Assembly (NCBI GenBank): GCA_022925895.1
Contig: JAKSYS010000070.1
Span: 62,001 to 126,000 of the forward strand
Origin: Fragilaria crotonensis
Lineage: Eukaryota > Bacillariophyta > Fragilariophyceae > Fragilariales > Fragilariaceae
Length of the DNA: 64,000 nucleotides
Reading direction: 5' to 3'
Below, in pieces: positions 4,592-24,982 of this stretch. A program made the position numbers and the translations under genes. The notes under the pieces are model-generated. The model was given only the letters and a program-made list of their open reading frames with translations. It was not told the DNA's origin and did no database searches. Position 1 is the first letter of the stretch. Every line of letters starts with the position of its first letter.

Positions 4592-6752
4592 CTAAAGGCC
4601 CACTTCTCCCGAACGGTTGCTAAGCATCTCCTGCCTTGTTGATTGTTGCCGACTAGCAGAAACTCGTCTTGATGACTGATTGCTTGACGCGACGCGCTCA
4701 CCGGCGCTTGATCGTCTTTCGAGAGTCGGCCGTGAAGGTGTAGATGTTGACGACCGAGGTCGACTAACTGAATGACCGCTAATTTCCAGGCTTCGGGACC
4801 TGTTTTCTACCTGGCGAGGGCCTCGTCTCGCAGGCGAAGGATGTCGTGCCTTTTCGCGGTTGTTACTGCCTCCAGCAGCAACGATGTTCGCTAAGGGGTC
4901 TGCCACTTCCGGCTCGTTCGCGATTCCGAGCTTCTCTTTCCAAGTCTTGCATTGCGACCGAATATTATGTGAAGGAATCAGCCGACGAGATGGAAGAGGT
5001 TCGTTTGTAAGCGGTGAAGTTGGGCGTTGCGTCTCGTTGAAACGCGAAAACCAAGCTTCGATTGCTGATCGTTCGTATGTGTGACCGTCCATCGCAGTCA
5101 CAGGGTCATCCATTAAGTCGCCAGTGATACAACAGCAAAGTTCACTTGGAGGCTCCAATTCATCCGCATCGTTCGATACCAAATACTCAGGGGCGGAGGT
5201 AGGATTCATGCTTAATTGGGCTTTGTTCTTCTGGAGTTTGCTATCCAGTCGTGAAATCGCATCCCGGCGTTCCTTTTCTGCTTTTGCCACTGACTCTTCC
5301 CGTTCCTTCCGCGCTTGCTTCATTTGCTCCAGGATTTTTTCTCGCTCTTTATCAATTATCCGCAAGCGTTCTTCTAGTGAGGTTACTGTCCGATCAAACT
5401 AATGGGAAGCAGTAGAACGGAGTCAGAAACGGTCAACTTGAAACAATGTTTCACAGGTGGAACATTCAGATTTTGCTTACCATATCTTGAGCTTGTTTCT
5501 TTGATGACTCGTACGTGCTTTTGATCCTCACCCTGTCTTGTTCCAGCATAGAAGATATGGTGTTCGCGAGTGAAATCAAATCTCCGTTGGCCTCGTTGCG
5601 GCTAGGCGGAGACTGATTAAGGTCCAAGAAGTTTCCTAGACTCACTCCGTTTTCGCTTTCCATTGGTAACTCTAGACATTCCACCGACTCAAGATGCTTC
5701 CCATCCTTTCCTCTGCCTCCTATTACAATGATCTTGTTGCCTACAGCAGCTGCCGAGCAACCAAACCTCTTCGACGTCATCTTCGGCACCTCCTTCCACG
5801 CTTGCTTTTCCACATCAAGGATCTCCACCGAAGCTGATGGTGATGTAGAGGATTCTCCGCCGCCTAGAACCACGATGCAGTTTCCAATAACGCATGATGC
5901 ACTCGCGTCTCGTTTTTCCTTCATACTAGGCATCCGACTCCACTTCTGATTGCTCAAATCCAATACTTCGACAGATGACCTGCACCCTCGTTGATTGCCT
6001 GAGGTAGTATGTCCTCCCAGAACAAATACTCGATGACCGAGAGCCGAAGCAGAGCAACCAGCACGTGGCGTCGCCATTTCTGGCAGACTGTGCCATTGTT
6101 GCGCACTAAAGTCGAGGATTTCGACAGTGCCCGATGCATTCTCACCATCCATCCAACCTCCCAAAACCACCACTCTCTTTCCCAACACTGTCACGGCAGC
6201 ACACCCTGCTCTTGGATTCTGCATAGGAGGAAGTCGGTGCCAGTGTAGTGTCGATAGATCGAGATATTCCGCCGTATCAAGGTACTTTCTACCACGTTGA
6301 AATCCACCTACAACGACGACAGCATTATGCTGCTCCAAGTACACCGCGGCGCATCCCATTCTGGCAGTTTTCATCGGTGGATATTCGGACCATTCGTTCG
6401 TAGACACATCAAACATGGCACAGGACTTGAGGAATTTATGTTCCGCATGGTACCCGCCGACCACAAGAATCTTGGAACCCATGATTGCGACAGCAGCACC
6501 TCCCTCGCGTTGTGACTGCATAGGGGCCAACTGTGTCCAGATTACAGATTTAAGCTGTTCCATGGCAACCTTCTTCATTTTGGAGCTGTGGAAAGAATCG
6601 TTGGCTTCCAGATCGTATGGGTTGGAGGAAAGAAGGGTGGTGAATGTGGTGCCGTTGATTTCTGAAATGACTTCCTCGAGAACGGGTTTACGAGCGATAT
6701 GGACTGAGGAGGCACCCAGGCTCGAACAGGCATTGCGTTGTGTTTGAGACAT
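4592..6752 (-). CDS. Kelch-repeat / coiled-coil / U-box protein (probable E3 ubiquitin ligase)
   Basis: Exons run 6752-5481 and 5398-4592. The intron at 5480-5399 (82 nt, GTAAGC...TAG) is phase 0, giving about 692 residues that read ...KKQAQDM then FDRTVTSLEERL. Six Kelch repeats lie at about residues 80-365, each with a GCAA/GCSA turn and a V(V/L)GG strand (KILVVGGY, AVVVVGGF, RVVVLGGW, RVFVLGGH, CIVVLGGG, KIIVIGGR). They are followed by a charged coiled coil (about 405-490) and a U-box (about 509-580: CCCITGDLMDDPVTAMDGHTYER, then IEAWF and SPLTNEPL). The tail is Ser/Arg-rich. A U-box recruits an E2 enzyme, and a Kelch propeller usually binds a substrate, so this should be a stand-alone ligase. 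Kelch domains are usually coupled to BTB or F-box modules, so this pairing is unusual. Two separate genes are unlikely because both splice sites and the frame agree. Confidence 0.85.
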
Positions 6753-7821
6753 ACATGTACTGGAGTACCTGGTACATATACAAGTTCTTGCACCAGTACA
6801 ATGTACTCTGCAGTTCTGTACTTGTTCCTGTTACTGTATTTTACAGTCTAAGGGCTGTTGGCTGTTGGTACAGTCTCTTGACGACAGATACTCCGGACAC
6901 CGGACTCGGGAATTAGTTCGTTTTAATTCTATGTACTCGTACCATGTACCTGGTATGTACTGTGGGACTACTGAGCGCTCGGGACAAGAGTATGACAAAT
7001 TATGTGCAGTATGCAGAATATAATCGAGGTGAAAGCGGCACAAACAAACAGATCTCCATGCACACGATAAGTCCAGGGCATACAATTGAATGTAGTGGCG
7101 ACTGGCATAAATCGAAGGTCATTAGTTGAACTATGACTGAAGGAATGCTGCTAAATGCTAAACGTGGACCTGAGCGGAAATATCAATTGCCCCTTTGTCC
7201 TGGGACTGTACTGTCCTCCGAAGATAGTAGAGTAGCACCTGGAATCAGTATGCACTATGCACGTACAGTACCTAAAACATACGAGTACCTCGTACTCGAG
7301 TACTTCGAATTTCATACTTACACAACGCATCGTATCTCGTATCGTTTAGACTTTAGGCACTGATTGTATGAGGTACAAGTACTCGTATCATACGGCTAGT
7401 AGGATATTCCAGACGCTGCGGAGTATGCATACACATAGTAAGAGACAAAAAGAGATGTCATAGCCTCAGAGACATCAACAGTTCTACGTCGGAATGCGGA
7501 AGTCCTATTGCTCTGAAAAATTATGTACTCCGTGTATGTCCCCTAATCGAGCCGGTCGAGCTTTTCTAAAAAAATCGACTCCATAAATTATATCGCAATC
7601 AAGTTGCACATCAACTTTACCTACAAAACACAGACTGCTCCTCTGAGGACAGAATTACCGTACAATGTACCAGTAGTCAGTAGAACTCAGTACTCCCGTA
7701 CACTATTGCAGGTGATGGCCGGCTCGATTAGGGGACATACACGGGCTCCCTGCTGCATGCCTGGTCATTGGTCACACTCTGGTCGGCGGTGTTAAGAAGG
7801 AATTGAGTATATTATAAGTTA
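6753..7821. other. GTAC-rich spacer
   Basis: No gene seen. The stretch is dense in the self-complementary word GTAC, often in phrases such as GTACCTGGTAC or CTCGTACTCGAGTAC. It also contains the inverted-repeat element at 7530-7744. It probably includes the promoter of the Kelch/U-box gene, but no core element could be singled out. Confidence 0.5.
7530..7744. repeat. 215-bp element with 26-bp perfect inverted ends (MITE candidate)
   Basis: Positions 7530-7555 and 7719-7744 are exact reverse complements over 26 bp, beginning CCGTGTATGTCCCC. The 163-bp interior has no open frame of note. The flanks show no obvious target-site duplication, so a MITE is likely but unproven; a chance foldback from an inverted local duplication is the alternative. 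Confidence 0.6.
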
Positions 7822-8397
7822 CTAGTGGGTACCTCCCAATTGGTCGGACTTTTGGAATACGTGTACGGTATGGGTTGTGCACGGTTGTGTGTACTGTTTG
7901 TAAAGTTCAGTACTATACGCAAGTAGTGCAGTACCCCAGAGTGGTCATACTCCGTAACAGACGCACGCACTGACGCAACTACGTATATGCAAATCTTACC
8001 GACATCGCTTACGGAGTACTCCAGTATGCATGTATGACATATATCATACTCCCGAGTATGAGACAGTATTCATTTGATCCAGTACCCCAGAGTGGTCATA
8101 CTCCGTAACAGACGGACGCACGCACGCACACACGCACACAATTAATTTATAACTAGTGGGTGCCTCCCAATTGGTCGGACTTTTGGAATACGTGTACGGT
8201 AAAAACGAAAAAACCCACGCCTCCCAATTGGTCGGACTTTTGGAATACATGTACGGTATGGGTTGTGCACGGTTGTGTGTAGTGGCAAGCGTGCTGCAAA
8301 TGATGTGTTTTACAACACAATTAGATGAGGAAAAAAAGTGACAAATTCATAGAAATTTGCTAATTTAGATTGCCAAAATACACAGTATTGAAGTTGT

Positions 8398-9760
8398 TTA
8401 CAAATCCTGTTGATGATACTGAGGGCACAGTTTTGATATCAGGACCTCCTTATAAACAATGTTGTGCAGAAGATGACCATCAGTAAATATGAAAAGATCA
8501 TGTGGGTTACGAACTCTTGAGAGAGCAACGTAAAGCTGGCCATGTGCAAATACACCTTGTGGCAAGAAAATGCCAACTCTTCGCAATGTTTGACCTTGAC
8601 TCTTGTTGATCGTCATTGCATATGCTGGTTGAACTGGAAACTGACGTCGTTTGAAGACAAATGGCAGCTCATCTTGAGGTGATAGGAGAGCAATCCGTGG
8701 TATGTCCACAATTTCTGCAGTGGTAGGAATCAAACACTGGAGGACAGACTGTGAGATACGGCGAACAATGAGACGGGTGCCATTGCTGAGTGTGCTTGAT
8801 AGGTTTCGGAGCAGCATGACCAACATGCCTTTTTTCAGAGTGAGGCAATGTGGTGGAAGGCCAGATAGCTCCAAAGAGTTCAGGAATTCAGGAGGATAGA
8901 GGGTATGTGCAGGATCATTAGGTTCCTCAGATATGATGTTGTCAATACTGAGAAACACATGTTCATCATGAGGTAGCCTTGAGGTTACCATATCATTGAT
9001 TCTTTGAACATCTTTGTTTTTAGGACATAGAATAGCACGTTCAGACCAATAGGCTGGTTCATTGGAAGAAAAATCATCAAACACATGCTCAACCAGTTCG
9101 TTTGTATCCTGAGGCTGGAATATATAAGATGGTAGATTTATTGGGGAAGGCTCCATATCCTCGCCGATCCTCAACAGGAAAGATGCAAAATGGGAAAGTA
9201 CTTCTTGGAACTCTGGGTTAGCATTCGTGTTCTGTAAGTCCATTCGCAATCGCATATTTTCAGAGAGTTGCATTACATTCACAGATGATGTTTGCCAGAC
9301 TTTGGATTGTAGGACAGTTGAATGCACAGTGGTAGCTCTTCCAGCATGGCGTAGTATGGGAAGCACTTGACGAAAGTCACCACCCATGACGACAACCAAG
9401 CCACCAAAAGGAGCATCATTACGTTCAAGTAAATCACAAAGAGACTGTGAAAGAACATCAAGACCAACACCCTTAAGCATTGTGATCTCATCAATGATCA
9501 AAATCTTTGCAACCTTCATAACTTCTGCCTTCTCTTTTGATAGGTTGCACATGGATGTTTCATATAATTGAATTGGAAGCCCGGATATATAGTGCAGAGT
9601 ACGGCCCAAAGGGGCAAAGTTTGAGGCAGCAATGCCTGATATGGCCGTTGCAAGGGCAACCTTCCCTTCACTGCGCACCTTGGCAAGGATCATCCTGAAC
9701 AACTCCGTCTTACCTGAGCCTGCAGGTCCATCAACAAAATAAACATTTTCTGATTTTCAG
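8398..9760 (-). pseudogene. PIF1-like helicase domain of the Helitron
   Basis: This is the C-terminal helicase of the RepHel protein. Walker A reads VDGPAGSGKTEL (about 9743-9708), Walker B is ILIIDEITML, then GGDFRQVLPI, and the last motifs are YAMTINKSQGQTL and LYVALSRVRN. The helicase is complete from Walker A to its stop at 8398. Just upstream of Walker A the frame closes with a stop, while the neighbouring frame reads the expected ...GTENQ, so an indel in an A-run separates it from the Rep part. In Helitrons this domain unwinds DNA during rolling-circle transposition. Confidence 0.85.
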
Positions 9761-11945
9761 TACCAGCATTGTTGTTCACAGAAGCAAGTACAGCATCAAA
9801 AATAGCACGCTGTTCAAGATTCAGGAGAGGAGGCGATCCAGCTGCTGTTGAATATCAGTGTTGGATGATGACAGCTGCAATTCTAACAAATGGTTGACTG
9901 AATTGTTGTCCATGGCACTCCCATGCTCCTCAACCAGAAGTGTGCGGAGGGATGGTATCCATTCGAATACAGAACGGCTGTGCATTATCCCCAGAAGGGC
10001 ATCAAGTTTACGCACAAGGAGGTCCTGCAGGTGTTGTTCACTAAGGCTGGGTTGACGGTGTGCATAGTCTTCTGACAGGGCAGCCCAGTGAGAGTCATAG
10101 AGTGACCTTGGGTCAGAGACATCACAGTTGAAGAGGATGATTGCAAAAGTCTTCTGAGCCTTGCTGGGAGAGTGTCTGTGTGGCTTCCTGCATGGCTCGA
10201 TGCCACTCAGTATCATCATCTAGAAGACCCAATGTACGACAGGCATCTTGAAATGTTGGACAAAGTACATCATCAACGGTTCGTAGAGCTTCAAAGCTTG
10301 TTGCACCTTTCACTACAGTCAACATCCTTCGCAGGAAGTATCTCTCACCAGAAGAAGGGGAAGCACTGTAGAGGCGAGACACAGTGGGAATGTCTGCCGG
10401 TGATTGGAGCGTCGTACCCAGCACTTCTCGACACCAGCACTTTTCCATGTGTAGTGTTGTGGGATGTCATGATAAAGGAACTGGCGAGCATACTGATCAT
10501 GCCGATTGAGGTCCAACCAGGCAGTCAATTGTGTACAGGGTGGTCCTCTTGCAAGCACTTGAGCAACATTTTCATTTTCCTCAAAAACCACCGATTGCTG
10601 ATTGGGAAGATGGAACATTAGGCGCATCACATTGGGCTTCTCTGAATGTAGACGAAGGCTGAAGAGGCGCCAGCATGCCTCTGATGCAGAGACATAACGT
10701 CCATCAAGATAGAGCTTGATCTCATCAACATCTTCCCCCCATCTGGACTGCAGCACGGTCGTGTCCCTTGTATACATACTTGTAGAGGTACTTGACGGCC
10801 TGCACTGAATTGCACACCTCAACATTGATATGACAATCATACTTCTTGGTAAGATGGCAATTATATGGCACAACCCAGCGGTTGTCCAACTCAGCTCCTC
10901 GAACAGTTACAGTCCTTCCATCATCACGTCGATGATATTGAGGGAATCCATCATCATTGAGTGTTGTCTCATCTTGAAAGGGCCGGGGATACTTGTCCTT
11001 GCATTCACCTGCTGGCTTTGTAGAACTATTACAACACTTCAAATTTTTCCATCGATTGGGGGAAACTTTGGTGCCACAGGGCCCATGCAACATACACCTC
11101 TTCACAGTTGCAAAAAAGTTCAGGATCTATCAATGCATCTGGGATCTCAGCTGAAACAATATGGTCAATGTCAGATTCTGTGCGCGGTTTGTCATTCTCT
11201 GCCAAAATGACCAGTACATGTGCATGCGGCAATCCTCGCTTCTGAAATTCGATGGTGTAGATAGCAGCCACAACCCTTCCAAGCACTTGCCGCTTCTGGA
11301 GGTCAATCATCATCTCTGTAAATTTGAGATGGAACACTCGTGCCACCAAATCTGGTCTGTCATTTACAGTTTGGCCAGGAAGAAGGTTTTCAACAACTTC
11401 TGGCCACTGCGGATTGGTTGTCATTGTAATAAAGAGGTCTGGCTTGCCCATTCGGCGCACAATTGCCAATGCATCCTGGCAAAGCTGGTGCATGTTTCTT
11501 GCACTTCAATGTGAGATGAAGGCAGAATGATTCGTCGCCCCAGCTGTCGAGTGTTTGTCACATCCTCACCAGCAACAGCATCTGCAATGCCTTGATAAAG
11601 TTCAGCACGCAATCTTGGTTGATTAAGACGGATGAAATTAAGACGGCCTTGTTCCACTTGGGCATAGCAGTCCACAATGTATTGGTGAAACAGCTTCCTG
11701 CAAAGTGAAGGTGATTGGAGAACTGAGCAGCAGGTCGTACAAAAAGCCGAAATGCAGCATGCATGAGGCAAGTTAATCTTGTCAAATGTGGAGTCGTAGC
11801 ATTTGGACCAGTTTGCATCATGCCAGGATGCCAGCCTCCTGGGAGCCTGTTGGAAAAAGGAGTACATATGCCAGTGGAGAATAGTCGGGATGGAGCTCTG
11901 AGATTGACTGAATTGCTCCAGCACAAAGCAATACTCGAATATCAC
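9761..11945 (-). pseudogene. Rep (HUH endonuclease) and linker part of the Helitron, frame-disrupted
   Basis: Conserved Helitron pieces lie in order but in changing frames: QGRLNFIRLNQPRLRAELY and RRIILPSSHI (about 11680-11510), KPDLFITMTTNPQWPEV (about 11450-11400), the HUH motif in FQKRGLPHAHVLVIL (about 11250-11210), and the catalytic-tyrosine region VKYLYKYVYKGHD (about 10810-10770). DEIKLYLDGRYVSASEACWR follows (about 10720-10660), then a linker to the helicase. At least four frame changes occur, for example after LLFPTGSQEAG, where GWHPG continues in another frame. The HUH His residues and the tyrosine motif are present. Confidence 0.8.
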
Positions 11946-13332
11946 GGTTACCTGAACCTTCGTCAGGAAGAATCACAGCTACCTCACTGGAACTTGGTGC
12001 ATTGTACCGTCTGTTGTCCAATTCAGGTTGATCCAGGATATGCATTGCAACATTGTGGCCAGGCAATTCAACATCATGATTACCATCAGTATTACTGGCC
12101 AAGGTTTCCTCATCAAGAGCTTGCTTGAATAATCCATACAGCCGGTTTTGATTCTGAATCATTTGCTGCAATAAAACCAAAGTATTCCTGTCCAAGGTAT
12201 TCAAATGATGTAAACGATTGTCCACCTCATGGTTAGTGTCATAGAAATAGAGTTGTGCAAAAGCAGGATGCTGTCCAGGTTCTGGGAGCAATGATCCTAA
12301 CCGGTGGTACATTGAGCCATGAATGCGAAAAGTATAAATTCCACAACTCCTATCAATCAAAGCATCATCCACATTAGCGCCTATTGAGGCAAAACTCAAG
12401 GCAGAGTTGTAGGCACGGATGTGTGGCATGAACAATTCATGTGCATGAAAAAGATCCATCAACACATTTGGTGTGGGATCAAGAGGGAGGAGAGATACCT
12501 TGCCCTTGGCACAGCAAGAAGAAAAGTAGCCCCTTTCAGACCTTGATTCATTTGGAAAATGCAGTGCAGAGCAGCCCTGACATTCAACTGTGCATGGGCC
12601 AAGGACATGACGTGCTGGAGCAGGAGCAGATGAATAGGCTGCGCCATTGGTGCGTTGGCAACTTTGGCGTGTTTGTCTCATGTGCTCTTGGTTCCTAGTG
12701 GTGATGGCAGCCATCTGTGTGGCAGCTACAGGGTCACCTTCTTGAGATCTCTGGAGGCGCTCCAGACGTGTTTGTCTCATCTGCTCTTGGTGCTGAGTGG
12801 TGATGGCAGCCATCTGTGTGGCAGCAACAGGGTCACCTTCTTGAGATCTCTGGAGGCGCTCCAGACGTGTTTGTCTCATCTGCTCTTGGTGCTGAGTGGT
12901 GATGGCAGCCATCTGTGTGGCAGCAACAGGGTCACCTTCTTGAGATCTCTGGAGGCGCTCCAGACGTGTTTGTCTCATCTGCTCTTGGTGCTGAGTGGTG
13001 ATGGCAGCCATCTGTGTGACAGCAACAGGGTCACCTTCTTGAGATCTCTGGAGGCGCTCCAGACGTGTTTGTCTCTTCTGCTCACGGTTCCTGGTGGTGA
13101 TGGCGGCCATCTGTGTGACAGCAACAGGGTCACCTTCTTGAGATCTCTGGAGGCGCTCCAGACGTGTTTGTCTCTTCTGCTCACGGTTCCTGGTGGTGAT
13201 GGCGGCCATCTGTGTGGCAGCTACAGGGTCACCACCTTCTTCTTGGGACAGGTTGCGAAGTTTGGCACGCCTTTTCCTTGCTGCAATGGCAGCTGGCTTT
13301 GTTGATAGTGAATGTTTACTTGGGTGTGACAT
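11818..13332 (-). CDS. N-terminal region of Helitron Rep protein with 33-residue repeats
   Basis: The first ATG of the open frame is at 13332 (MSHPSKHSL). About 5.7 tandem copies of a 33-residue unit (RQTRLERLQRSQEGDPVA then TQMAAITTR/QHQEQ) follow. Then comes a Cys-containing segment (CTVECQGCSALHF...CC) and the Helitron-like N domain: HIRAYNSALSFASIGANVDD, GIYTFRIHGSMYHRLGSLLP and FAQLYFYD. The frame ends at LLFPTGSQEAGILA, exactly where the family's conserved continuation shifts frame. The repeat unit is basic and could form a helix; its role is unknown. Confidence 0.75.
   Translation of the reverse strand: MSHPSKHSLSTKPAAIAARKRRAKLRNLSQEEGGDPVAATQMAAITTRNREQKRQTRLERLQRSQEGDPVAVTQMAAITTRNREQKRQTRLERLQRSQEGDPVAVTQMAAITTQHQEQMRQTRLERLQRSQEGDPVAATQMAAITTQHQEQMRQTRLERLQRSQEGDPVAATQMAAITTQHQEQMRQTRLERLQRSQEGDPVAATQMAAITTRNQEHMRQTRQSCQRTNGAAYSSAPAPARHVLGPCTVECQGCSALHFPNESRSERGYFSSCCAKGKVSLLPLDPTPNVLMDLFHAHELFMPHIRAYNSALSFASIGANVDDALIDRSCGIYTFRIHGSMYHRLGSLLPEPGQHPAFAQLYFYDTNHEVDNRLHHLNTLDRNTLVLLQQMIQNQNRLYGLFKQALDEETLASNTDGNHDVELPGHNVAMHILDQPELDNRRYNAPSSSEVAVILPDEGSGNRDIRVLLCAGAIQSISELHPDYSPLAYVLLFPTGSQEAGILA
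12668..13235. repeat. 99-bp tandem repeat inside the Helitron coding region, about 5.7 copies
   Basis: The landmark CTTGAGATCTCTGGAGGC recurs every 99 bp (about 12741, 12840, 12939, 13038, 13137). The period is a multiple of three, so copy number can change without breaking the frame. Neighbouring copies differ at few sites, for example GTGGCAGCAACA versus GTGACAGCAACA, which points to recent expansion or homogenisation. Confidence 0.9.
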
Positions 13333-13720
13333 AATGGTTATATGCTGATTGGAAAGAATTGGAAGCAAGGAATTATGTGAGCGGTACAATTACTGTAGGT
13401 GTATGAGGTACTGGAGTCTACAGTACAGCGTACAGTACCATACTGTACAGTACTTGGAGTACATCTTATAGTGAGTGAGTGTATGAGGTACTGGAGTACA
13501 ATGTAGAGTCGTAACAGGGACTACAGTACAGCCAGCGTACAGTACTGTGCAATGACCACCAATAATACAACTTCACGACGCAACCCGCCGTTAATTAAGC
13601 GTTATCTTTCAAAAAACGAAAAAACCCACCGTTAATAAAACGTTATTTGAGTAAGGGATGACATTTGTAACCAAAAAATTTGCGTTCATGCGGGGGCCAA
13701 GCACCAATACTGGCGAAGCT

Positions 13721-14045
13721 TCTTGGTTACTGTTACTGTTTACTTTCAGTACTCAACCCTGGCGAAGCTCCGTAGTGAAAAAATTCAGACAGTATTCATT
13801 TGATCCAGTACCCCAGAGTGGTCATACTCCGTAACAGACGGACGCTAGTGGGTACCTCACATTTGATCTGAGTGTCTACTACAGGAAACTGGACGTACAG
13901 TACCCCCAACCTGGTCGTACTCCGTACCACTACATTTACTGTTACTGTTTACTTTCAGTACTCAACCCTGGCGAAGCGAAAAAATTCAGACAGTATTCAT
14001 TTCATCCAGTACCCCAGAGTGGTCATACTCCGTAACAGACGGACG
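13721..14045. repeat. Duplicated ~115-bp module in the Helitron 5' terminal region
   Basis: The run from ACTGTTACTGTTTACTTTC to the GTAACAGACGGACG block occurs twice, at about 13730-13845 and 13938-14045. The second half of the module (CAGTACCCCAGAGTGGTCAT) is also found in the small Helitrons at 7924, 8083, 33465 and 33615. It therefore appears to be a family-wide subterminal block present in one or more copies. Confidence 0.75.
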
Positions 14046-14095
14046 CACGCACGCACACACACAATTAATTTATAATATAGTAGGATATAGTAGGA

Positions 14096-17043
14096 TAAGC
14101 TACACTATATATTCGATAATTGCATGGTTTCGATTACAGTACCGGTAGAATGCAAGGAAATGACGTCAAGCATGACACCGGTACATACCCTATTCCAGTA
14201 GATGTACTGCAGTACTTATTAACGGTAATTCCGTAATTCCCCTATGAAGTTCTTTGATGTCGCCAGAAAACTCTATGATACTCATATTTATATATACTAC
14301 AAGTAGTGGGTTCCTCACATTTGATCTGAGTCTATACTCGAAGGTATACAGGAATAGAGGATACAGCCAGGTGATACTTGACCAGTACATTGTACTGTAG
14401 TTCCTGGTACAGAGTAGCAGCAGCACTTGAAAAAAAGGAAATTCTTTCCACGAGAAAGGAGCATCTCTTATGGCTGGTTTCACGAGTTGAGAACATGTAG
14501 TAGAAATTGTGTAGGGATGGTACAACATTAAGTGACATCACGGAGTGAATTCTGATCTGGCATACTCGTTCATTCGAACAACACGAACGACATCGCACAA
14601 AAAACAGGGCTGCTGACCATGATAATCGAATGACTATTTCATCATCTTCCAGTCATCATCAGCCCCGCCTCTTTTGACATAACTTCAATAAACCAAGCAA
14701 GGAAGGCACTTGCCAAAAAAGGCGGGGCTGATTGGCCGTCATGAAGACGCTACAGGTATTTTACTAGGACCAGAGGTTATGACCTACAAAGCGCACGTAA
14801 ACGATCCTGAACATTGATCATCCCAGATTTTAAGGGTACAGTTGTTGGTTTCGGATTAGCAGAGCTAGGACGTATGAAATTAGAATTAGTAGTATGTAGT
14901 GATATAACAGTATGCAGTACGTAAATGTCCGCACCGGAGCGCTTTTCAGAGTCCAGCATCAATGGGGAAATGTGAGTTGATACACATCAAATCTGGAAGA
15001 GCTTGCATGTAGAACAATCTTGAGATCGCTGATTCCCTTGCTGCCAAGTTAGCAGCCGGCAACATTGTTGAGAAAGCCGCCCGTGTTGCCGGCAACCACC
15101 GTGAGGTCCGTTTCCTGTTGTTAGGGACTCACGACTGCTGGCAACAAAATTACCATCATTTCAACGACAGACAACTGGGAACAAGAATACCGGTCAAATT
15201 GAACCCACGTCAAACATAATCACTCGTGCCATTCCTGGTGCACCCAAGGAAGTGATGCTGATTGACTGCTAGGGTTGTGCACAAGCAACCCACAACAAGG
15301 GATTTGTTGACTGTCAACCTTAGTACGCTCACAATATTCTCTTTGGTCAGACAAAAGAGTGGAAGCCTTGTCTTGACCACAATGTAGCATCACTCGCGCA
15401 CTCAATGGCAAACCTTTCCCAGGGCTGCATCCCCTGCTGGACAGGTTTTTTAAACCACTATGCAGTGCTGGATGAGGTCAAAAACAGCGGATTCACGACG
15501 ACTAGAAACGGCGTTGATGGCGCTCTTTGAACCATGGAAGCTTCCTTCTGAAGTCAAGGAGGCGCTCCTCAATGCCATTCCGCGCCCACTGGCAACGCCA
15601 CGCCAATGGGAATGGGAGGTATTCCAGTCGGGAAGATGCCCACTGATGATTCCGCATCACCACTCCATACGAACGACGACACGTGTAGATGCAAGGCAAC
15701 CCTTGAATTCAGTCCAACTACGCTTACGCTTCCACTGATTGAGCGTCTTGTTAAGGCGTTCAAAACCCAGTGAATGCTTTTGCACCGACGCTTGAGAGGT
15801 GTGTCTTCGTAAGGAATGACACAAATGAAGCAGCGCAAGAAGAATAACAGGTTGTGGTACTGTATGGATTATGGAGATGTGATATGTGTGAGAGGTCCAT
15901 TTTGGGGCTTCAACTAAATTTTTAGATTACGGAGTCTACGTGCCTCTAGGATTTGCAGGCGCAGGATGAACCCAGCCATACAAATGTCCTTCGTGGATGT
16001 TTTGTAGATTATGGAAATACTGGAGTACAAGAGATTTCTACATTCTCAAGAGCTGGAAAGTCAATAAGAAATTGAAAGAAATTCTATCCTTTAATTGCTC
16101 AAGCTGAACATCTGCATTTAAAGCCAAGTGCAGAGAGTTTGCAAGAATAATGAGTACTATTCAGCTTTCTGAACAGATTGGATGCTCCACTGTCTGGGAC
16201 AGCAACTCGGAAACAATACGTTTGAAATGAGCACCTAGCTTGGCTTTAGGATGGAATTCATCATGTCCTCTCCGGGTGCAGATTGTTTTAAAATGTTATC
16301 AACACATGAAGTCTGCTACATTGATGCCAGCAGCTGTGCCTACTACCTAGTAGCTGTACCCGACACCCAACTGAGGTGAGCGAGTTTTAGCATGCTATTG
16401 AGTACGAATGTACCGGAGTACACGTAGGATTCAGAAAGGTGTTTTAATACAAAAAACCACCCTCTTTTTGGTGTTTTAATCCATTAACAGATTGAACCAC
16501 TTCCAAGATCCGGAATAAGGTGTTTTTTCCAGCCATGATGCATACAGACTACAGATGCAGTGTGACCGTCTGACCTCTGACCATACTCGGAACTCGGAGG
16601 ACTCCGAACAAAGGTACAAGTACCCTCGCCTATAGTACTTGAACGGTATACGGTATACATGCAGCATCTACAGTAAAACGTAACTCCATGTACTGGTACT
16701 CCTGTACTGCTGTACTGGCATCCTGCCTTTCCACTGTCCCCATACATACAGTCTACTCGCGATATTATGGGTACCCTGGTAACTGGCGAAAAGTGCCCAT
16801 AATATCGAAACACCCATAATACATTTACACGTGATTTGAACGTGCTTTTTAAGTACAGGCACAGTACAGTAGTGTTCTACGGGAATGAGTGGCCCTGTCT
16901 TGTACTAGTAGTACGTAGTAGACATAGGTACAAATACTAGCTATGGAGTACTGGAGTGAAGGTAATAGAGCACCCTCAAAACCAACGGTAGACAAAATCA
17001 CTAACTCACCAACAACAGCAACAACGTAACATTGACTATTAGC
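14096..17043. other. Repeat-rich spacer left of the LINE
   Basis: No convincing gene. The stretch holds a near-perfect stem-loop at 14658-14732, a second inverted pair around 16760-16806 (CGATATTATGGG / CCCATAATATCG), and GTAC-rich sequence at about 16660-16930. Short open frames at about 15460-15840 have no recognisable domain and look like remnants. Confidence 0.45.
14658..14732. repeat. 75-bp foldback with 22-bp arms
   Basis: The outer 13 bp (ATCAGCCCCGCCT at 14658 and its reverse complement at 14720-14732) match perfectly. Extended to 22 bp the arms agree at 20 positions, leaving a 31-nt loop. It could be a very small MITE, a hairpin in a transcript, or a relic of an inverted duplication. 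Confidence 0.65.
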
Positions 17044-17145: not shown

Positions 17146-18840
17146 ATGACGACGCAGTCTTTCCCAATCTCCAGCGTTGGCTGTGATCCAGCCCGCAATT
17201 CTGAGGTGGAAGATGACTTGTCTACTTCTACCCCACCGGCCGGTTATCGTAATTCTGAAGAAGATCATGAATTCGTTTCGAAAACGATCCGTTTCTATTT
17301 TGCGCCTACTGATCGTACGCGTCTCGACAGCATGGCTCCTGCCGAAGTCCACACCAAATGGTTACGCATGATTACGTCTATTTTCGGAACTGATGTCAAG
17401 ATCATCAACAACAACAACAAACAGGTGCTTCACATTGACACAAACAGCAAGGCTGCTAAAGGAACATCTCACGGAGATCAGTTCAAAGTACACGAAAAGC
17501 CAATGGGTCTCTCGTCGTCCGGAAATCCCAAGACTGCTGTAGTTATCGTTCATCGCATCCTTACCCGTATCCCGCTCGGTCAAATCAAGCGTAATCCGTC
17601 GGCGTTCAAATTCCTGATCGAACATAACTGTTTTTTGAGAGAACACATGTGGGACGAACATGAATGGGATGTTCAACAAATTGGATTCGTCACTGGATTC
17701 AATCCAAAGTATTACTCCCCAGAGAGAGCCACTACGCTTGTTCGTGCTCGGTTGTGCAAGGCGATGCCACGTGCAAAAGTTCCTAAGTTCCAAATGGTAC
17801 TCAAGAGTCACAAAATCAATCACCAAGGACGTACTTCTTCTACCCAAGCATATACCATCGAAGTTCCAACAAATTCCGTCGCCCAGCTCATTCCAATCAT
17901 CAAAGATGTCACTAAAGACACGAAAGAGTACGTCGCATTTCAGTTACGTCGGAAAAATCCAGATGCCTTCCAAGGCGCGATCAGGTATCAAAATCATACT
18001 CTGGCCAATCAGCACGTCGTTATGATCAACTACCTAGGATCAGATGCCATGTACTACTTGACCGACAGGATCCAAACCATTACAGGTGTCTACGATGTCA
18101 TTCCTACAAAGAAAGTGTCGGAGAACGGCAAATTCTACGTTCTAGTCGATAAAAAGGCAGCAAGTAATATTCGCGAATCGTTGACCAAGACATTTGACAG
18201 GTGGTTTCAAGAATTTGTCCCAGAAGATGCCAGACCAATGCCCGGACGGTTCGATGGCCCGCCAGAAATAGGAAAGCCTAAGTCAGACGGATACTCGAGC
18301 GGCGACAACTCGTGGATAACGGCATCTACGAAGAGCTTCCTGACGTATAGCGTCAAGAATATGGAAACGGATACGAGTGTTGTATCTCAGGACCTTGACA
18401 GTGCATGGGAGCAACGCACAACAGCCACAACTCAATCCAAGTCCTCTACACCACCCCAACGTCCAATCGGAAAGACATTTGAATCGTACGCTGCGGCAGC
18501 ATCCTTCGACCAAGTTTCGGGTATGACAGAACCAGAACAGCCACGCGACGCGCGTCATGATGAGCTCAGCAATAAAATTGCCAATCTCGAAGCAATGATT
18601 GTCCAATTATGTCAACAGGTCCAAGCATTAACAAACAGACCTTCAGATCAAAACGATCAGATGCTGCACGAGCAGTCAGGAAAACGTGTCGATAGGAAAG
18701 AGTCCCCGAGGAAACATAAACCACCTCAGCGATACTCCGCTCCCTCAGCTGTCGAAGAAGACACAAATGAGCCAGCGCCAAATGACGACGATCGTCCCAC
18801 CGTGTGGGACGATTATTTATCAAGTCCCAAAAATGATTAG
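17146..18840 (+). CDS. LINE ORF1 protein, 564 aa
   Basis: Starts at the first ATG after an 81-nt leader. The N-terminus is acidic and Ser/Thr-rich, then a folded middle follows (about 45-350, with TIRFYFAPTDRTRLD, IKRNPSAFKFLIEHNC and VTGFNPKYYSPERATT). After a Pro/Ser-rich linker there is a short heptad-like coiled coil (ELSNKIANLEAMIVQLCQQV, about 470-500) and a basic tail. I see no CCHC knuckle or RRM signature. ORF1 proteins of LINEs usually bind the element RNA and may trimerise through a coiled coil; that role is inferred from position. The stop TAG at 18838 lies inside the start region of ORF2. Confidence 0.85.
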   Translation: MTTQSFPISSVGCDPARNSEVEDDLSTSTPPAGYRNSEEDHEFVSKTIRFYFAPTDRTRLDSMAPAEVHTKWLRMITSIFGTDVKIINNNNKQVLHIDTNSKAAKGTSHGDQFKVHEKPMGLSSSGNPKTAVVIVHRILTRIPLGQIKRNPSAFKFLIEHNCFLREHMWDEHEWDVQQIGFVTGFNPKYYSPERATTLVRARLCKAMPRAKVPKFQMVLKSHKINHQGRTSSTQAYTIEVPTNSVAQLIPIIKDVTKDTKEYVAFQLRRKNPDAFQGAIRYQNHTLANQHVVMINYLGSDAMYYLTDRIQTITGVYDVIPTKKVSENGKFYVLVDKKAASNIRESLTKTFDRWFQEFVPEDARPMPGRFDGPPEIGKPKSDGYSSGDNSWITASTKSFLTYSVKNMETDTSVVSQDLDSAWEQRTTATTQSKSSTPPQRPIGKTFESYAAAASFDQVSGMTEPEQPRDARHDELSNKIANLEAMIVQLCQQVQALTNRPSDQNDQMLHEQSGKRVDRKESPRKHKPPQRYSAPSAVEEDTNEPAPNDDDRPTVWDDYLSSPKND

Positions 18841-21800
18841 ATCAGATCATCATCGCAACAACACAGCTAAGGTTAATCATACCGTAGCTATTGATATCGA
18901 CAATAATCGAGTGCATAATTCTCTGATGGACAGACTGAAAGCATTATCCGAGGCCGCGACCAGACAAAGACGCGCAGAATCCCACGAACAGAACAACGAT
19001 GAATCCTCATCCACAGGCGGTACGGCAGTTCGAATCGATTGCACCACACCACTCGAACCGCCACTCCTACCTTCAGTGCGAGTCACCCGAGACCAACGGC
19101 TGCTTATAGCACAAACAGAATGGAAGAAGTTACTATCGCAACGTAGCATCCAACACAGGACGTACGATACACGTCAACGGATACTCTCAGCGGAAAATCA
19201 AAGGGACAACAATTATTGGGGCGATTCGCTCGGAGAAAAAGGCAACAACGTTACCAGAGTTTACTCTCTAAACGTTAATGGTTTGTCCATTGATAGGAGA
19301 GGAGGTAGATTCGGAGAGCTGTGTCAAGTTGCACAGGAAGTCCAAGCGGATATAATATGTTGTCAAGAGCACAATCTGGATACTACAAAATCGAACGTTC
19401 GGAGTGTTTTATACGATACTGCGAGGCAACATTGGAGTCGCTCCCGCATCATCTCTGCAACAACGCCAATTCCATTCGAGACAAATTATAAGCCAGGAGG
19501 AACGATGATGGTAGCTATAGGTGACATGACCGGGCGCATAATCGCGCAAAGTCATGACAAGTGGGGTCGTTGGACAAGTCAAACATTTCGGGGAACAGGC
19601 AACACAAATCTTACCGTGATTTCAGCGTACCAAGTGGTATCTGATAATCCGCACACGGGATTAACAACCGCGACCGCGCAACAACAAAGCTTACTAACTC
19701 AATCAAACGATTCGTTGAGTCCTCGCAAAGCATTTAAACGCGATCTTCGACAGTTTCTGCAGGAACGAATTTCCCAAGGGGAAGAGCTGATCCTCGTGGG
19801 CGATTTCAACGAAGTATTTGGTTCGGATATTGACGGTATGAGTCAGATAGCTGCTGAACTTCACCTTCTTAACATGATGCAGACTCGGCACCAACACAAG
19901 CCACCTGCAACTTATTCCAGGGGGAGAAAGTGCTTAGATTATGGACTTGCTACCCAAAGAGTTGCAAATGCGCTTCTCTCTTGCGGTTACGAAGCGTTTA
20001 ACGAACGGTTTGCAACAGATCACCGGGCCTATTACTTCGATCTGGATAATGACAAGCTATTTGGAAATATGACCCAAAAACTAGCACCCCACTCGCAAAG
20101 GACGTTAAAATCCAACAACATTGAGCAAGTGACGCAGTATATCAAGTTGAAATATGACTATTTGATGCAGAGGAACGCTCAACGTCGATCGGATCAATTG
20201 TCGTTGCCAGGCGACAGACATGCTTTCGCTGAACGTCTCGATTCAGATGTTTTGAAAGCTAGCCTGGATGCGGAAAAGAACACTAAGCAGTTCAGAGAAC
20301 CGGCGTGGTCAGTCGCGTTAAGTCAAGCTCGTTTACGAAAAGTCATATTGAAGAAATGGATGACTATGCATCGTACCGGATTAGACCACTCCCGAATCAT
20401 AACGAAACATATAACATCCGGGAACCTAGATATACAGCTCCCGACTTCCATGCAACAATGCAAACAGAAACTCCGGGAAACGCAGGCCGAGATTGACAAA
20501 CTGGTTGTGGACAGTTATCGCCAACGGGATCAAGAAAGAGATGAACGTATCCAGGAACTCGATCGATCTATGCTTAAAGCTGACAAAAAACACGCCACAT
20601 TGTTACGTCGATTAAAAAGGAACGAAAAAGTGAAGCGAGTAACCGAGAAAATAAAAGCAGCAAAAGAGAAAGGGCAACGACAGGGTGTAACCAGACTCGA
20701 GATTCCTCGACCACCGGCAACCGATCCAAAAACATGCACTGATTGGCAGACTATCGATATTCCTTCCGAGATTGTGGAAAATCTTCAACGTCGAAACCGG
20801 CAACATTTCGGACAAGCACATGGCACCCCGTTTACCGTGGATCCGCTAGCAGAAGACTTGGGTTTTTGTGGGGATTCACCAAATGCAGAACTAATACTCG
20901 ACGGGAACTACCAACTGGACGGGCATCAGGAGTCGGTACGAATGCTGCTTCAACACCTAAAGCAAACGCACGAGATCGCTTCACTGCAAACATACCCTAC
21001 CGTTTCCCTTGAAGAATTCCAAGGAAAACTCCGAGCATGGAGAGAATCCACTACCACTTCACCATCGGGTATGCACTTAGGGCATTACAAAGCCTTGTTT
21101 GCAAAACACAAGTACTCCAATGTCCCCCCTTTAGACCCGTCTGCAAGGCTAGACGACGAGAAAACAGAGGAACACAAACGACAACTTGCTCTCAAAGCAG
21201 AATACGACTATATGCAACAATTCTTAGCAAATTTGCATTTATCGTTGCTTAATTATGCACTGGAAAGAGGATACTCGTTTCGTCGCTGGCAAAATATTGC
21301 TAATACAATTCTGTTCAAAGACCCCGGTAGCGTCAAGATTCATCGAACCAGAGTCATCCATATATACGAGGCAGATTTCAATCTCATGTTAGGAATCAAG
21401 TGGAGGGTGGCGTTGTATCAATCCGAGGCATTGAACCAATTAAATGACGGCCAATATGGTTCGCGACCACGACGAAACGCCGTGGATCCGGTCATGATAG
21501 AAGAATTGCAGTTTGAAATCTCTCGGCTGAGCAGACGAATGTTTCTTCAAACCAACTATGATGCTAGCGCGTGCTATGACCGTATCATACCCAATTTGGC
21601 AATGATCGCGAGTCGCAGATTCGGTGTGGCAAAATCCGCAACTCAATCCAACGGAAACACTCTCCTCAATGCCAAATATCACGTTCGGACGGAGCTTGGA
21701 TTGTCGGATTCTTCGTATTCGCATTCTCCCGAAATGCCGATTTATGGCACAGGCCAAGGGAGCGGTAACTCGCCAATGATATGGTGTTTCATGTCGAGTA

Positions 21801-24800
21801 TATTGTATGATTGCTACGAATCGAAGGCAGCGACAGCTCAATACTGCAACCCAGATTGGTCAAATCCAAACAAGGTCTCGATGATCGGCTTTGTCGACGA
21901 CAGTAACGGCCAAGTGAACTCGTTCTTTGAACCAGAAAACACCAATACTCTTCGCGCCATGGTTTATAAAGCGAAGCAAAATGCTATCGAATGGTCAACA
22001 CTTTTACAAGCAACAGGCGGAGCGCTAGAGTTGTCCAAATGTTCATACCATGTGATGTATTGGAAATTTTCGGCTCAAGGAGCACCGGTTCTCTCGAACA
22101 TTCAAACCGAGATACCACCACTGCAAATCATCGACCCTCTCACGGGCACGGTCCAAACCTTGGATTATCTTCCACCATCGGTTGCACATAAGACTCTCGG
22201 TCATTACAAAGAGCCTTGCGGATTACAGAAAACGCAATTCAGACAACTCAAACACAAAAGCGATACAATTACTGAATTCCTCTGGTCGACTCACTTTACT
22301 CGCGAGGAAGCGTGGACATATTACCGCTCTTGTTACATACCCGCCGTGGCATACCCGTTGACATCCTCCTTCCTTTCCAATTCCCAATTGAGAGCTATCC
22401 AAACTAGGGCAATGGCAATCATCACTGCAAAATGCGGGTTCAATCGCAACACAAAATCCGAAGTGCTGTATGGACCGAGAGATCTGGGAGGAGCGGAGTT
22501 TCGTCACCTCACTGTCCAACAAGGTATCTCACAAACCACCTATTTCCTTCGCCATTGGAGGACACAAACATCAGTGGGTAAACTTCTCCAATGCACGATG
22601 GCATGGCTACATCTCTCTGTAGGAATGTCTTTCTCGGTTCTCGAACGAGTAGAAGTCCCACTTCCCCACCTCGAATCGAAATGGATCAGAAGTCTTCGTA
22701 CTTTTCTTGCGTCCATCTCAGCATCACTTCACCTTGACAACCCACGCGTCCCACAGCCGCAGCGCGAACAGGACAGGCATTTGATGGATATGATTCTTCA
22801 GGCGAATCGATTCTCCCCTTCGGAAATAAGAAGATTGAACTACTGCCGACTTTACCTTCAGGCAGTCACATTGTCCGACATAGCGAAACCAAACGGACTG
22901 GAGCTCGACCCATGTTTTCTGCGCGGTACATCCTCGCTGTATAGCAGCCGCACACGATGGCACACCATAAATCAAGATCGCCCGTCCGAGAAAGAGTGGA
23001 AGTTATGGCAATCCGCAAATCGAATCTGGAGCGACTCCCGAGGACATCTTTTGCAACCTCTCGGAGCCTGGCTTCATCCTCTTTCAGATCATCGTTTCGA
23101 ATTTTTCGCGTACAAGTATCGCCGTTCTATGTTCATTCGCACAGAGACAGGATCGTACGCAGTCTTCAGACAAAATGGATCAAACCAGTATCGCCCATCA
23201 GCCACGTCAGGTCTTCGGAGATACGAACAGCTGCCTGAACGATCGCGACCAGTCGAAGTGGAAATGGGACCAAACGGAGTATGGTGCATAAAAGGCACTC
23301 CAGCAACCATCATCCAGATTCCCCACGTACCTCCTTCAGCGACAGCTACCTTCGATTTGTTTATTTCCACACTTGAACCATGGGAAACGGACCTATTGCG
23401 TCAAGTCTCCCTCACAGTGGACCCCTTTTCGCTTTGTCTCGACTTAACTCACGGTTTTAGAGCCGTCAGCGACGGGTCTGTTACAAAGGAGCAATATGGA
23501 TCCTACGGGTGGGTTTTAAGCTCGCGCACGAATGAACGAGTCGCATTTGGGATGGGCCCGGCACGAGGACGACGACCGCACTCATATAGAGCTGAAGCAT
23601 ATGGGCTCCTGTCTTTCCTTCGATTCTTAATTCGTGTCAAAGAATTTACAGGGATGCAGGAACAGTGGAAAGGAATTTTGGCGACCGATAGTCAAAGCGT
23701 CCTGGATACCCTGCAGATCGGGGATATTGATCCTCAAGAAGAGGAGGAACCGGTGGACCTCGATGAAGGGACAGTTGTGCTCGATTGTTTACGCCCCGAC
23801 TGGGACGTTCTAATCGAGATCCAATCCGCACTACAAGGACTACCACACGTCAAACTCCGACACGTCAAAGGGCACCAGGACAAGCAAAGGTCTTATCAAA
23901 ACCTTGATCTTCTCGGTCAGCTGAACGTCGATGCCGACGCACAGGCAGGAATGTACAACCTGGAATATGGAGCTCGACGCCCGTTCGTACTCATGTCTCC
24001 CTTAGCCCGAGCGCACTTACTCCTCCCAGATGGAACAGTAACTGGCAAATATTCATCCGTCTTACTTCACGAGGCATCCGCTAAACCCCTACTCAATTAC
24101 ATCCGCGAAAAGAACGCATGGACTGAATCAACTCTTCAATCAATCAATTGGGATGCGCACGCGACAGCGATAAACAGGACTTCAGTTCCTCATACTCATG
24201 TCGTCAAGCTTCTGCACGGCATTTTGCCCACCCATGCGCGAGCAAATAAATTCGATGGAGGTACACGTCAATGCATCCTTTGTGGATCGAATAACGAGGA
24301 TTATCTTCACATTCTCCGATGTGCACATACAACCCGAGTGGAGTGGCGCAATAAATTTCTGACAGGCATTCGAGATTTCTGTATCCGGTCCGATACTCAC
24401 CCTCTGTTGTGCGGCTTGATGATGGACGGTCTTCGACAATGGTTAAATTCGACGACCAAGGAGATTACCTTGTCACCGGAACAATACCATCCCACTCTGC
24501 GTAGTATTATATGTCAACAAAACAACATTGGTTGGAGTCAATTATTCTTGGGGAGATTTAGTACCGCCTGGAGCCAACATCAGCGTCGGTATTGCGAGAG
24601 TCAACAGGGCGCCGACGACAAGGACGGATGCAGTGCGGCATGGCAGGCAAATTTAATCTTATACGTTTGGGAAAGATGGTACACCCTCTGGAAGCAACGA
24701 AATCTGGAAGTTCATGGACATGATGAACGTACCAAAGCAGAAGCATCCAAACGCGAAGTGCGCTCCCAATTAACCGAGATTTATCGTCATCGCTCCATGT

Positions 24801-24982
24801 ATGAGGCGAACGTACAAAAACTACTGCACCGGGAGGTGGGAGACCATGAACAGCATTCTCTGGGAGTTGTTAAGAATTGGTTATCGATCAACGCTCCCAT
24901 CTTTAAGGAAAGTTACAGACGAGTCAAACAGCGCGCAACGAACGGTATGAGGTCCATCCGTGAGTATTTCAACGCACAGTAG
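18833..24982 (+). CDS. LINE ORF2: AP endonuclease, reverse transcriptase, RNase H, zinc knuckle
   Basis: The frame is open from 18686. Candidate ATGs are 18767 and 18833; the latter overlaps the ORF1 stop as ATGATTAG, giving 2049 aa. The endonuclease begins near 19260 (YSLNVNGLS, CCQEHN, ILVGDFNEVFG, then ATDHRAYYFDL). In the reverse transcriptase, motif A is NYDASACYDRI, motif B is GTGQGSGNSP and motif C is FVDD at 21890-21901, rather than the more common YADD. RNase H (about 23460-23990) retains the acidic set in AVSDGS, SYRAEAYG, ATDSQS and NVDADAQAG. A CCHC-type knuckle follows: CILCG...H-x4-C (about 24270-24320). All catalytic motifs are present with no stop, so this could be functional. 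Confidence 0.9.
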   Translation: MIRSDHHRNNTAKVNHTVAIDIDNNRVHNSLMDRLKALSEAATRQRRAESHEQNNDESSSTGGTAVRIDCTTPLEPPLLPSVRVTRDQRLLIAQTEWKKLLSQRSIQHRTYDTRQRILSAENQRDNNYWGDSLGEKGNNVTRVYSLNVNGLSIDRRGGRFGELCQVAQEVQADIICCQEHNLDTTKSNVRSVLYDTARQHWSRSRIISATTPIPFETNYKPGGTMMVAIGDMTGRIIAQSHDKWGRWTSQTFRGTGNTNLTVISAYQVVSDNPHTGLTTATAQQQSLLTQSNDSLSPRKAFKRDLRQFLQERISQGEELILVGDFNEVFGSDIDGMSQIAAELHLLNMMQTRHQHKPPATYSRGRKCLDYGLATQRVANALLSCGYEAFNERFATDHRAYYFDLDNDKLFGNMTQKLAPHSQRTLKSNNIEQVTQYIKLKYDYLMQRNAQRRSDQLSLPGDRHAFAERLDSDVLKASLDAEKNTKQFREPAWSVALSQARLRKVILKKWMTMHRTGLDHSRIITKHITSGNLDIQLPTSMQQCKQKLRETQAEIDKLVVDSYRQRDQERDERIQELDRSMLKADKKHATLLRRLKRNEKVKRVTEKIKAAKEKGQRQGVTRLEIPRPPATDPKTCTDWQTIDIPSEIVENLQRRNRQHFGQAHGTPFTVDPLAEDLGFCGDSPNAELILDGNYQLDGHQESVRMLLQHLKQTHEIASLQTYPTVSLEEFQGKLRAWRESTTTSPSGMHLGHYKALFAKHKYSNVPPLDPSARLDDEKTEEHKRQLALKAEYDYMQQFLANLHLSLLNYALERGYSFRRWQNIANTILFKDPGSVKIHRTRVIHIYEADFNLMLGIKWRVALYQSEALNQLNDGQYGSRPRRNAVDPVMIEELQFEISRLSRRMFLQTNYDASACYDRIIPNLAMIASRRFGVAKSATQSNGNTLLNAKYHVRTELGLSDSSYSHSPEMPIYGTGQGSGNSPMIWCFMSSILYDCYESKAATAQYCNPDWSNPNKVSMIGFVDDSNGQVNSFFEPENTNTLRAMVYKAKQNAIEWSTLLQATGGALELSKCSYHVMYWKFSAQGAPVLSNIQTEIPPLQIIDPLTGTVQTLDYLPPSVAHKTLGHYKEPCGLQKTQFRQLKHKSDTITEFLWSTHFTREEAWTYYRSCYIPAVAYPLTSSFLSNSQLRAIQTRAMAIITAKCGFNRNTKSEVLYGPRDLGGAEFRHLTVQQGISQTTYFLRHWRTQTSVGKLLQCTMAWLHLSVGMSFSVLERVEVPLPHLESKWIRSLRTFLASISASLHLDNPRVPQPQREQDRHLMDMILQANRFSPSEIRRLNYCRLYLQAVTLSDIAKPNGLELDPCFLRGTSSLYSSRTRWHTINQDRPSEKEWKLWQSANRIWSDSRGHLLQPLGAWLHPLSDHRFEFFAYKYRRSMFIRTETGSYAVFRQNGSNQYRPSATSGLRRYEQLPERSRPVEVEMGPNGVWCIKGTPATIIQIPHVPPSATATFDLFISTLEPWETDLLRQVSLTVDPFSLCLDLTHGFRAVSDGSVTKEQYGSYGWVLSSRTNERVAFGMGPARGRRPHSYRAEAYGLLSFLRFLIRVKEFTGMQEQWKGILATDSQSVLDTLQIGDIDPQEEEEPVDLDEGTVVLDCLRPDWDVLIEIQSALQGLPHVKLRHVKGHQDKQRSYQNLDLLGQLNVDADAQAGMYNLEYGARRPFVLMSPLARAHLLLPDGTVTGKYSSVLLHEASAKPLLNYIREKNAWTESTLQSINWDAHATAINRTSVPHTHVVKLLHGILPTHARANKFDGGTRQCILCGSNNEDYLHILRCAHTTRVEWRNKFLTGIRDFCIRSDTHPLLCGLMMDGLRQWLNSTTKEITLSPEQYHPTLRSIICQQNNIGWSQLFLGRFSTAWSQHQRRYCESQQGADDKDGCSAAWQANLILYVWERWYTLWKQRNLEVHGHDERTKAEASKREVRSQLTEIYRHRSMYEANVQKLLHREVGDHEQHSLGVVKNWLSINAPIFKESYRRVKQRATNGMRSIREYFNAQ

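Follow-up and report, generated by a model that had tools for sequence, protein, structure and literature searches.

A base-exact, orientation-specific self-insertion site in a Helitron family of the diatom Fragilaria crotonensis

The stretch of Fragilaria crotonensis DNA analysed here (the window; 64,000 nt, positions 62,001-126,000 of contig JAKSYS010000070.1) contains a long Rep/helicase Helitron that lies within a short, non-autonomous Helitron of the same family. A search of the genome assembly (62.1 Mb in 881 contigs) revealed that this nest, regarded in an earlier note on the window as an isolated piece of luck, belongs to a set of about two dozen formed at the same base: the 5' end of the family contains a base-exact, orientation-specific self-insertion site, between A10 and T11 (hereafter A10/T11, a slash marking an insertion junction), at which 25 doubled decamers and 28 joints with no more than one mismatch were found. 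The repeated use of this site is likely to be driven by the target preference of the family itself.

Nested copies in the window and in the genome

The following features make up the nested pair and its uninterrupted counterpart in the window.

8153-14085, minus strand: inner Rep/helicase Helitron, 5,933 bp, at A10/T11 of the outer copy
7822-8152, minus strand: outer non-autonomous Helitron, positions 11-341 (3' part), with CTAG/T at 7822/7821
14086-14095, minus strand: outer non-autonomous Helitron, first 10 bases (TCCTACTATA), with A directly before (flank CTTA)
33360-33696, minus strand: uninterrupted non-autonomous copy, 337 bp, between A and T; empty-site reference

The minus-strand sequence of the inner element opens with TCCTACTATATTATAAATT at 14085 and closes with GGGAGGCACCCACTAG at 8153, and the outer element (14095-14086 joined to 8152-7822) measures 341 bp after rejoining and ends with GGTACCCACTAG; both have TCCTACTATATTATAAATT as their start and ACCCACTAG as their terminal sequence. 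The two are 95% alike over the first 102 bp and 98% alike over the last 49 bp, with a one-letter difference within the last 22 bases (GGCACCC in the inner element, GGTACCC in the outer). The flanks read CTTA/TC...CTAG/TAAC for the outer element, TATA/TC...CTAG/TTAT for the inner and CCTA/TC...CTAG/TACA for the third copy (33696-33360), so that each of the three is preceded by A and followed by T, without a duplicated flank. Once rejoined, the outer copy reads TCCTACTATA/TTATAAATT, matching the uninterrupted third copy, to which it is 96% identical. The borders proposed in the earlier note (inner 8153-14085, outer 7822-14095) agree with these data to the base, as do its claims of insertion between A and T without duplication at 7822, 8153 and 33360 and of a clean rejoining of the interrupted copy; its statement that both elements have the same termini holds for the start and the CTAG end, but not for the last 22 bases as a whole.

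Insertion at A10/T11 of a resident copy would leave the first decamer of the outer element ahead of the newcomer and the remainder behind it, and is therefore expected to produce a doubled decamer at one end and a CTAG/TTATAAATTAATT joint at the other. Exact doubled decamers were found at 25 places in the genome, and CTAG/TTATAA 3' joints at 33 places when up to three mismatches were allowed and at 28 with at most one; the controls gave 0 in both searches. Twelve of the 25 doubled decamers were fully delimited by script, with inner element, 3' joint and outer end, and correspond to 11 distinct 3' joints, two stacked decamers on contig C603 sharing one. They include long elements in short ones (the window and C37), a short element within a long one (C573), pairs made up of two short elements (C90 among others) and, on C260, a stack three elements deep. 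The first decamer pair of locus L039 and that of L047 have the 3' joint and no outer end within the fetched stretch, and in L049, L050 and L051 the 3' joint lies behind a variant 3' end or carries changes. The flanks of the doubled-decamer loci vary from case to case. No true case of reverse nesting at 10/11 was found genome-wide, the single pattern match having three mismatches, all in the left flank. Within the fetched loci, 25 joints were counted at 10/11, six at 8/9 and one at 21/22, all forward, and no reverse joint at the five 5'-end sites.

The family itself is large. Its 26-base 5' end has 271 genome matches and its 22-base 3' end 214, each at up to three mismatches, while the reversed-pattern controls gave 0 and 1, respectively, which excludes chance as the origin of these ends. 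The C form of the 3' end, which is that of the long element in the window, occurs exactly at 36 places. Short copies with both exact ends about 340 bp apart number 48 in the T form, and two copies combine the C-form 3' end with an exact 5' end at the same spacing. From the 48, 45 were fetched (those on C751, C775 and C869 being left out), a set chosen by intact ends and to which damaged copies consequently do not belong. All 42 distinct copies that passed the filter have A before and T after, and their flanks differ in nearly all cases, L087 and L095 being alike in this respect; L070, L076 and L090, dropped by the filter, also lie between A and T, for a total of 45 of 45. Over all fetched sequence, which partly favoured nested places, A precedes 99 of 104 distinct 5' ends and T follows 106 of 111 distinct 3' ends, both at no more than one mismatch. 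The genome search with both termini suggested in the earlier note has thus returned many full copies, and the copies running on past the borders, which it had named as evidence to the contrary, did not appear in the intact-end set. Since the short copies are very alike, the C37 outer copy being identical to at least eight others among the 43 compared, their sequences point to a young, multi-copy family that has spread recently. Loci L087, L095 and L102 lie on three contigs (C249, C422 and C562) and share their flanks, a pattern that fits a segmental duplication, haplotypes assembled as separate contigs or a mobile repeat.

Helitron ends are hard to call, as they are marked by neither a target duplication nor an inverted repeat. 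Uninterrupted family copies are the empty sites of the nested ones, and the 25 doubled decamers (fully delimited in 12 cases) amount to repeated, internally controlled empty-site tests in which both ends are fixed; the earlier note had seen such a natural test in the nest of the window. Outside the family, the insertion on C225 has a paralogous empty site on C2, where the flank continues without loss or gain at the junction, with 15 matching bases on one side and more than 200 aligned on the other; a separate insert, about 620 bp long, is found 15 bases from the empty junction. The insertion at L071 is empty in paralogous repeats of L080 and L016, a weaker case than that on C2, as it lies in a tandem-repeat tract with 88% identity over 186 bp. 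When five sites were queried with joined flanks, four gave no clear empty site and matched their own filled loci. One of these four, on C98, also had weaker matches on C624, on C360 and at a second place on C98 (89%, extending about 8 bases left of the junction), as well as on C456 and C30, where 31 bases of the left flank alone are matched. Locus L071 (C55:208700-210552) contains two copies of the flank that follows the element's 3' end; they are 99% alike, lie about 810 bp apart and each stand behind a 3' end, possibly as a result of read-through or duplication.

Target preference and competing explanations

In the mechanism that we consider likely, the long copies encode an HUH Rep joined to a Pif1 helicase, and the short ones retain the ends alone. 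The cycle would begin with a nick at A/TC, after which one strand would be peeled off, ended after CTAG and joined into a target between A and T; these rolling-circle steps are inferred from the Rep/helicase content, the ends, the A/T targets and experiments on Helraiser. The preferred target is TA/T followed by an A+T-rich stretch, and the 5' end of the family, TCCTACTATA/TTATAAATTAATT, itself offers a near-ideal target 10 bases inside the element, so that new copies would repeatedly land there in the same orientation. Copies with several decamers may have come from stacks that later moved as the segment between their outermost 5' end and the first 3' end, or fused bodies may have resulted when an internal 3' end was read through. 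Helraiser has a preference for A and T at its target that is strongest on the 3' side, and it cuts the bottom strand of its own left end at an internal AT (PMC4778049), which makes self-targeting enzymatically plausible.

A target profile was trained on 34 full-length short copies with distinct flanks, all outside self sites. It consists of TA before the insertion, T after it and an A- and T-rich stretch behind; over 20 bases, the A+T content is 70% to the left and 79% to the right of the insertions, compared with 53% in the window. Among the A/T sites of the family 5' end, 10/11 in forward orientation is ranked first at each of three spans (6, 10 and 15), with scores of 6.47, 8.66 and 9.72, and the reverse orientation scores far lower (-0.84 and -4.68 at the two spans scored). 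On both strands of the window, 18, 1 and 4 positions, respectively, score as high as 10/11 or higher. The profile thus picks the right base and orientation without self-insertion data.

Several observations weigh against this explanation or limit its reach. The insertions predicted at the 271 self sites amount to 0.2%, 2.9% and 2.6%, depending on the span, compared with the 25 of 271 (9.2%) observed, an excess that could stem from re-mobilized stacks, from the small training set or from tethering to bound transposase. At span 10, the reverse orientation of 13/14 scores almost as high (5.49) as 8/9 forward (5.64), yet no reverse joint at 13/14 was seen; 8/9 ranks only fourth at span 6, and the 3' partner is present for only one of the six joints there. 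The tally of joints is itself biased towards 10/11, the fetched loci having been partly chosen for that joint. Eight of the 25 doubled decamers have no 3' joint: three run off contig ends (the second of L039, L058 and L059), three others are uncategorized (L023, L056 and L061) and two are seemingly re-mobilized. The latter, L004 (with three decamers) and L060, have one 3' end followed by non-family flank, as expected if the stacks had been re-mobilized from the outermost 5' end, slippage of the decamers being an alternative. Finally, the A/T rule has exceptions, five of the 104 5' ends lying after G and five of the 111 3' ends having no T behind.

The most serious competitor, which we regard as possible although clearly less probable than target preference alone, is that transposase bound to a resident 5' end attracts incoming circles and thereby raises self-insertion above the expectation from sequence. 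The gap between the predicted 0.2-2.9% and the observed 25 of 271 is what tethering would produce, and the Helraiser transposase cuts its left terminal sequence (LTS) at two points, the terminus itself and an internal AT dinucleotide of the opposite strand (PMC4778049). On the other hand, the non-self target profile already ranks site and orientation first by itself, the profile derives from just 34 sequences and re-mobilized composites may inflate the count. In a bolder and somewhat more doubtful extension of the same idea, the 5' end would act as a built-in landing platform, at which bound transposase and the embedded TA/T and A- and T-rich site together steer insertions into the ends of the family; host genes would then be spared, and new composite Helitrons with multiple termini would be generated.

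True head-to-tail joints do exist, which brings up the improbable alternative that each stack is a rolling-circle multimer deposited head to tail in a single event. A 3' end is followed by a 5' end within 24 bases at nine places (0 in the control). Two of these, exact CTAG/TCC joints in a run of short elements on C25 (L020:1815-2300) with an inverted copy ahead, depart from the A/T rule and resemble the joints of circles or multimers; they are compatible with either without proving it. Those on C159 and C822 read CCCA/TCC. Multimers are nevertheless expected to be joined as CTAG-TCC and cannot give a leading decamer together with a trailing CTAG/TTATAA, and in each of the 12 delimited cases the break in the outer copy falls exactly at 10/11, mostly with inner and outer elements of unlike length or end type. 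Stacks arise by more than one route, and insertion at A10/T11 accounts for the delimited ones.

It is very unlikely that a single nested composite was formed once and then copied as a unit to many places. The outer copies of the window and of C37 differ by one substitution and one gap, their inner elements are 99% identical over the length of the window element, and L004 and L060 hint at mobile composites, but the delimited pairs vary in the type and length of inner and outer elements, which leaves no one ancestor for the set; common descent of the window and C37 pair alone is compatible with the data. Least credible is an origin of the joints in assembly artefacts or collapsed repeats since, even though the 13-25 short indels between long copies fall mostly in homopolymers, as might result from long-read errors, the joints are exact to the base at 25 places whose flanks differ, and artefacts would not respect A/T and a single orientation.

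Assignment to the Helitrons and coding content of the long element

On the strength of their HUH, two-tyrosine and Pif1 motifs, their TC...CTAG ends and the lack of target duplication, the elements are classed as Helitrons, as the earlier note had read them. The combination that defines the superfamily, an HUH/two-tyrosine Rep fused to a Pif1-type superfamily 1 (SF1) helicase, is present in pieces in the window copy and in an open frame in a sister element (L109, on C120). The ends are those of the canonical group, Helitron1 (5' TC and 3' CTRR), as is the insertion between A and T in the 42 filtered copies and the three others. None of the 42 copies shares 1, 3, 5 or 6 flanking bases; a dinucleotide is shared in 20 and a tetranucleotide in four, which is ascribed to the TA-rich target. 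Duplication of a TA target was rejected, as TA stands before 90% of the copies but after only 57%. Membership of the Helitron2/Helentron groups, which are described as having T-rich or TT targets (PMC5148889), was likewise rejected, the 45 copies read lying between A and T.

One canonical feature was not found, and this counts against a fully typical assignment. Helitron1 is defined by a hairpin of 16-20 nt located 10-15 nt upstream of the 3' end (PMC13286980); no such hairpin was found in the last 60 bases of five 3' ends, which fold no better than shuffled sequences (z of -0.19 to 1.31), and the longest perfect stem in four 3' ends is 4 bp and directly abuts CTAG in two. Helraiser without its hairpin shows less transposition and a larger share of truncated and read-through events (PMC4778049), and read-through would fit the fused 241-bp body of the window long element, listed below with its other features.

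11218-11235, minus strand: HUH nuclease motif region of Rep (GLPHAH, which we take to be the HUH motif), within the open reading frame (ORF) 11029-11493 (PF14214, 1.1e-38)
10764-10793, minus strand: two-tyrosine motif region (KYLYKYVYKG), our motif reading, the Tyr spacing being compared with Helraiser Y727/Y731 (PMC4778049)
9706-9729, minus strand: Walker A motif (motif string), just upstream of the helicase ORF
8398-9702, minus strand: Pif1-type helicase ORF, 434 aa (PF05970, 1.1e-41; PF21530, 3.6e-16)
8509-8532, minus strand: helicase motif VI (motif string)
13845-14085, minus strand: 241-bp short-element sequence of B type that forms the fused 5' end of the long element and has a CTAG terminus of its own at 13845
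8220-8284, minus strand: internal 3'-region copy with a damaged end (GGGAGGCGTGGG instead of GGGAGGCACCC), element positions 5802-5866, 97% over 65 bp (BLAST)
8153-8201, minus strand: intact 3' end of the long element, element positions 5885-5933, 98% over 49 bp (BLAST)

The profile matches of the long element are Helitron_like_N, PIF1 and Pif1_2B, and the HUH, two-tyrosine, Walker A/B and motif VI strings are all retained, but its coding sequence is broken across several frames. Six long copies compared in pairs differ by 13-25 indels of 1-3 bases per pair; in each of the 15 pairs more than half of these lie in homopolymers (16 of 23 between the window and C37 copies), a share given without a homopolymer baseline, and for this reason both real decay and assembly error fit the frame breaks. 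The sister element on C120 (L109:137-6179) contains a single open Rep/helicase frame of 1,706 aa, shares 85% of its DNA sequence with the window element along 4.9 kb and likewise lies between A and T; its 5' end (TCCTACTCCTTTTTAAATTTGG) has no self-target site. Tandem units of about 99 bp (about 33 aa each) occupy window positions 12655-13305, in the N-terminal coding part of the Helitron, and similar repeats occur in the L109 protein. The CTAG at 13845 runs straight into the long body, being followed by CGTCCG and not by T, and the fused 5' body was probably produced by read-through of this 3' end.

The shared ends support a tie between the short non-autonomous family and a Rep/helicase partner, and the long element may well be what moves the short ones. 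The tie drawn in the earlier note between this family and an autonomous partner therefore stands as regards the ends; the long copy in the window, its frame being broken, represents the partner lineage and not a proven working copy.

Other features were noted around the nest. Next to the outer Helitron, the segments 7530-7555 and 7719-7744 form the arms of a perfect 26-bp inverted repeat that covers 215 bp in all and is similar to a miniature inverted-repeat transposable element (MITE), and a remnant of a B-type Helitron 3' end lies at 14304-14338 (88.6% over 35 bp). Two overlapping ORFs of 564 and 2,098 aa at 17146-24982, the larger with a weak Exo_endo_phos match (2.4e-05), possibly belong to a non-long-terminal-repeat (non-LTR) retrotransposon.

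Comparison with known systems

No earlier report of a recurrent, base-exact Helitron self-insertion site was found in the open-licence PubMed Central (PMC) papers, represented by excerpts, which is weak evidence of absence. The family resembles Helraiser/Helibat1 (PMC4778049) and the wheat Xuan-Feng elements (PMC13286980) in its TC...CTAG ends, in its insertion at AT without duplication and in having non-autonomous partners, and it shares with Helraiser an A- and T-rich target that is strongest on the 3' side and a two-tyrosine HUH Rep with a Pif1-like helicase (PMC4778049). It differs from canonical Helitrons in that no 16-20-nt hairpin was found, in the repeated use of a self-target in the 5' end and in its stacks of decamers.

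Head-to-tail arrays such as that on C25 are reminiscent of the tandem Helitron clusters of bats and Bombyx, which have been ascribed to bypass of the termination signal (PMC4067079), whereas the delimited stacks described here are insertions at A10/T11. Another parallel is offered by the FoHeli elements of Fusarium oxysporum, which also insert into themselves and include copies that combine several 5' termini with a single 3' terminus, an arrangement attributed to transposition that starts at the outer 5' end and stops at the first 3' end (PMC5148889). FoHeli are Helitron2-like, however, and follow other target rules, and the excerpts of that report describe a single nested pair together with duplications of 31-85 nt at the 5' end, with no base-exact hotspot at many loci with both joints (PMC5148889). 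The nested copies of F. crotonensis suggest a stepwise route to fused Helitrons and to those with multiple 5' ends, as proposed for the fungal elements (PMC5148889). While this is still a Helitron family, what it adds to the known systems is a self-insertion site that is ranked first by the family's own target preference.

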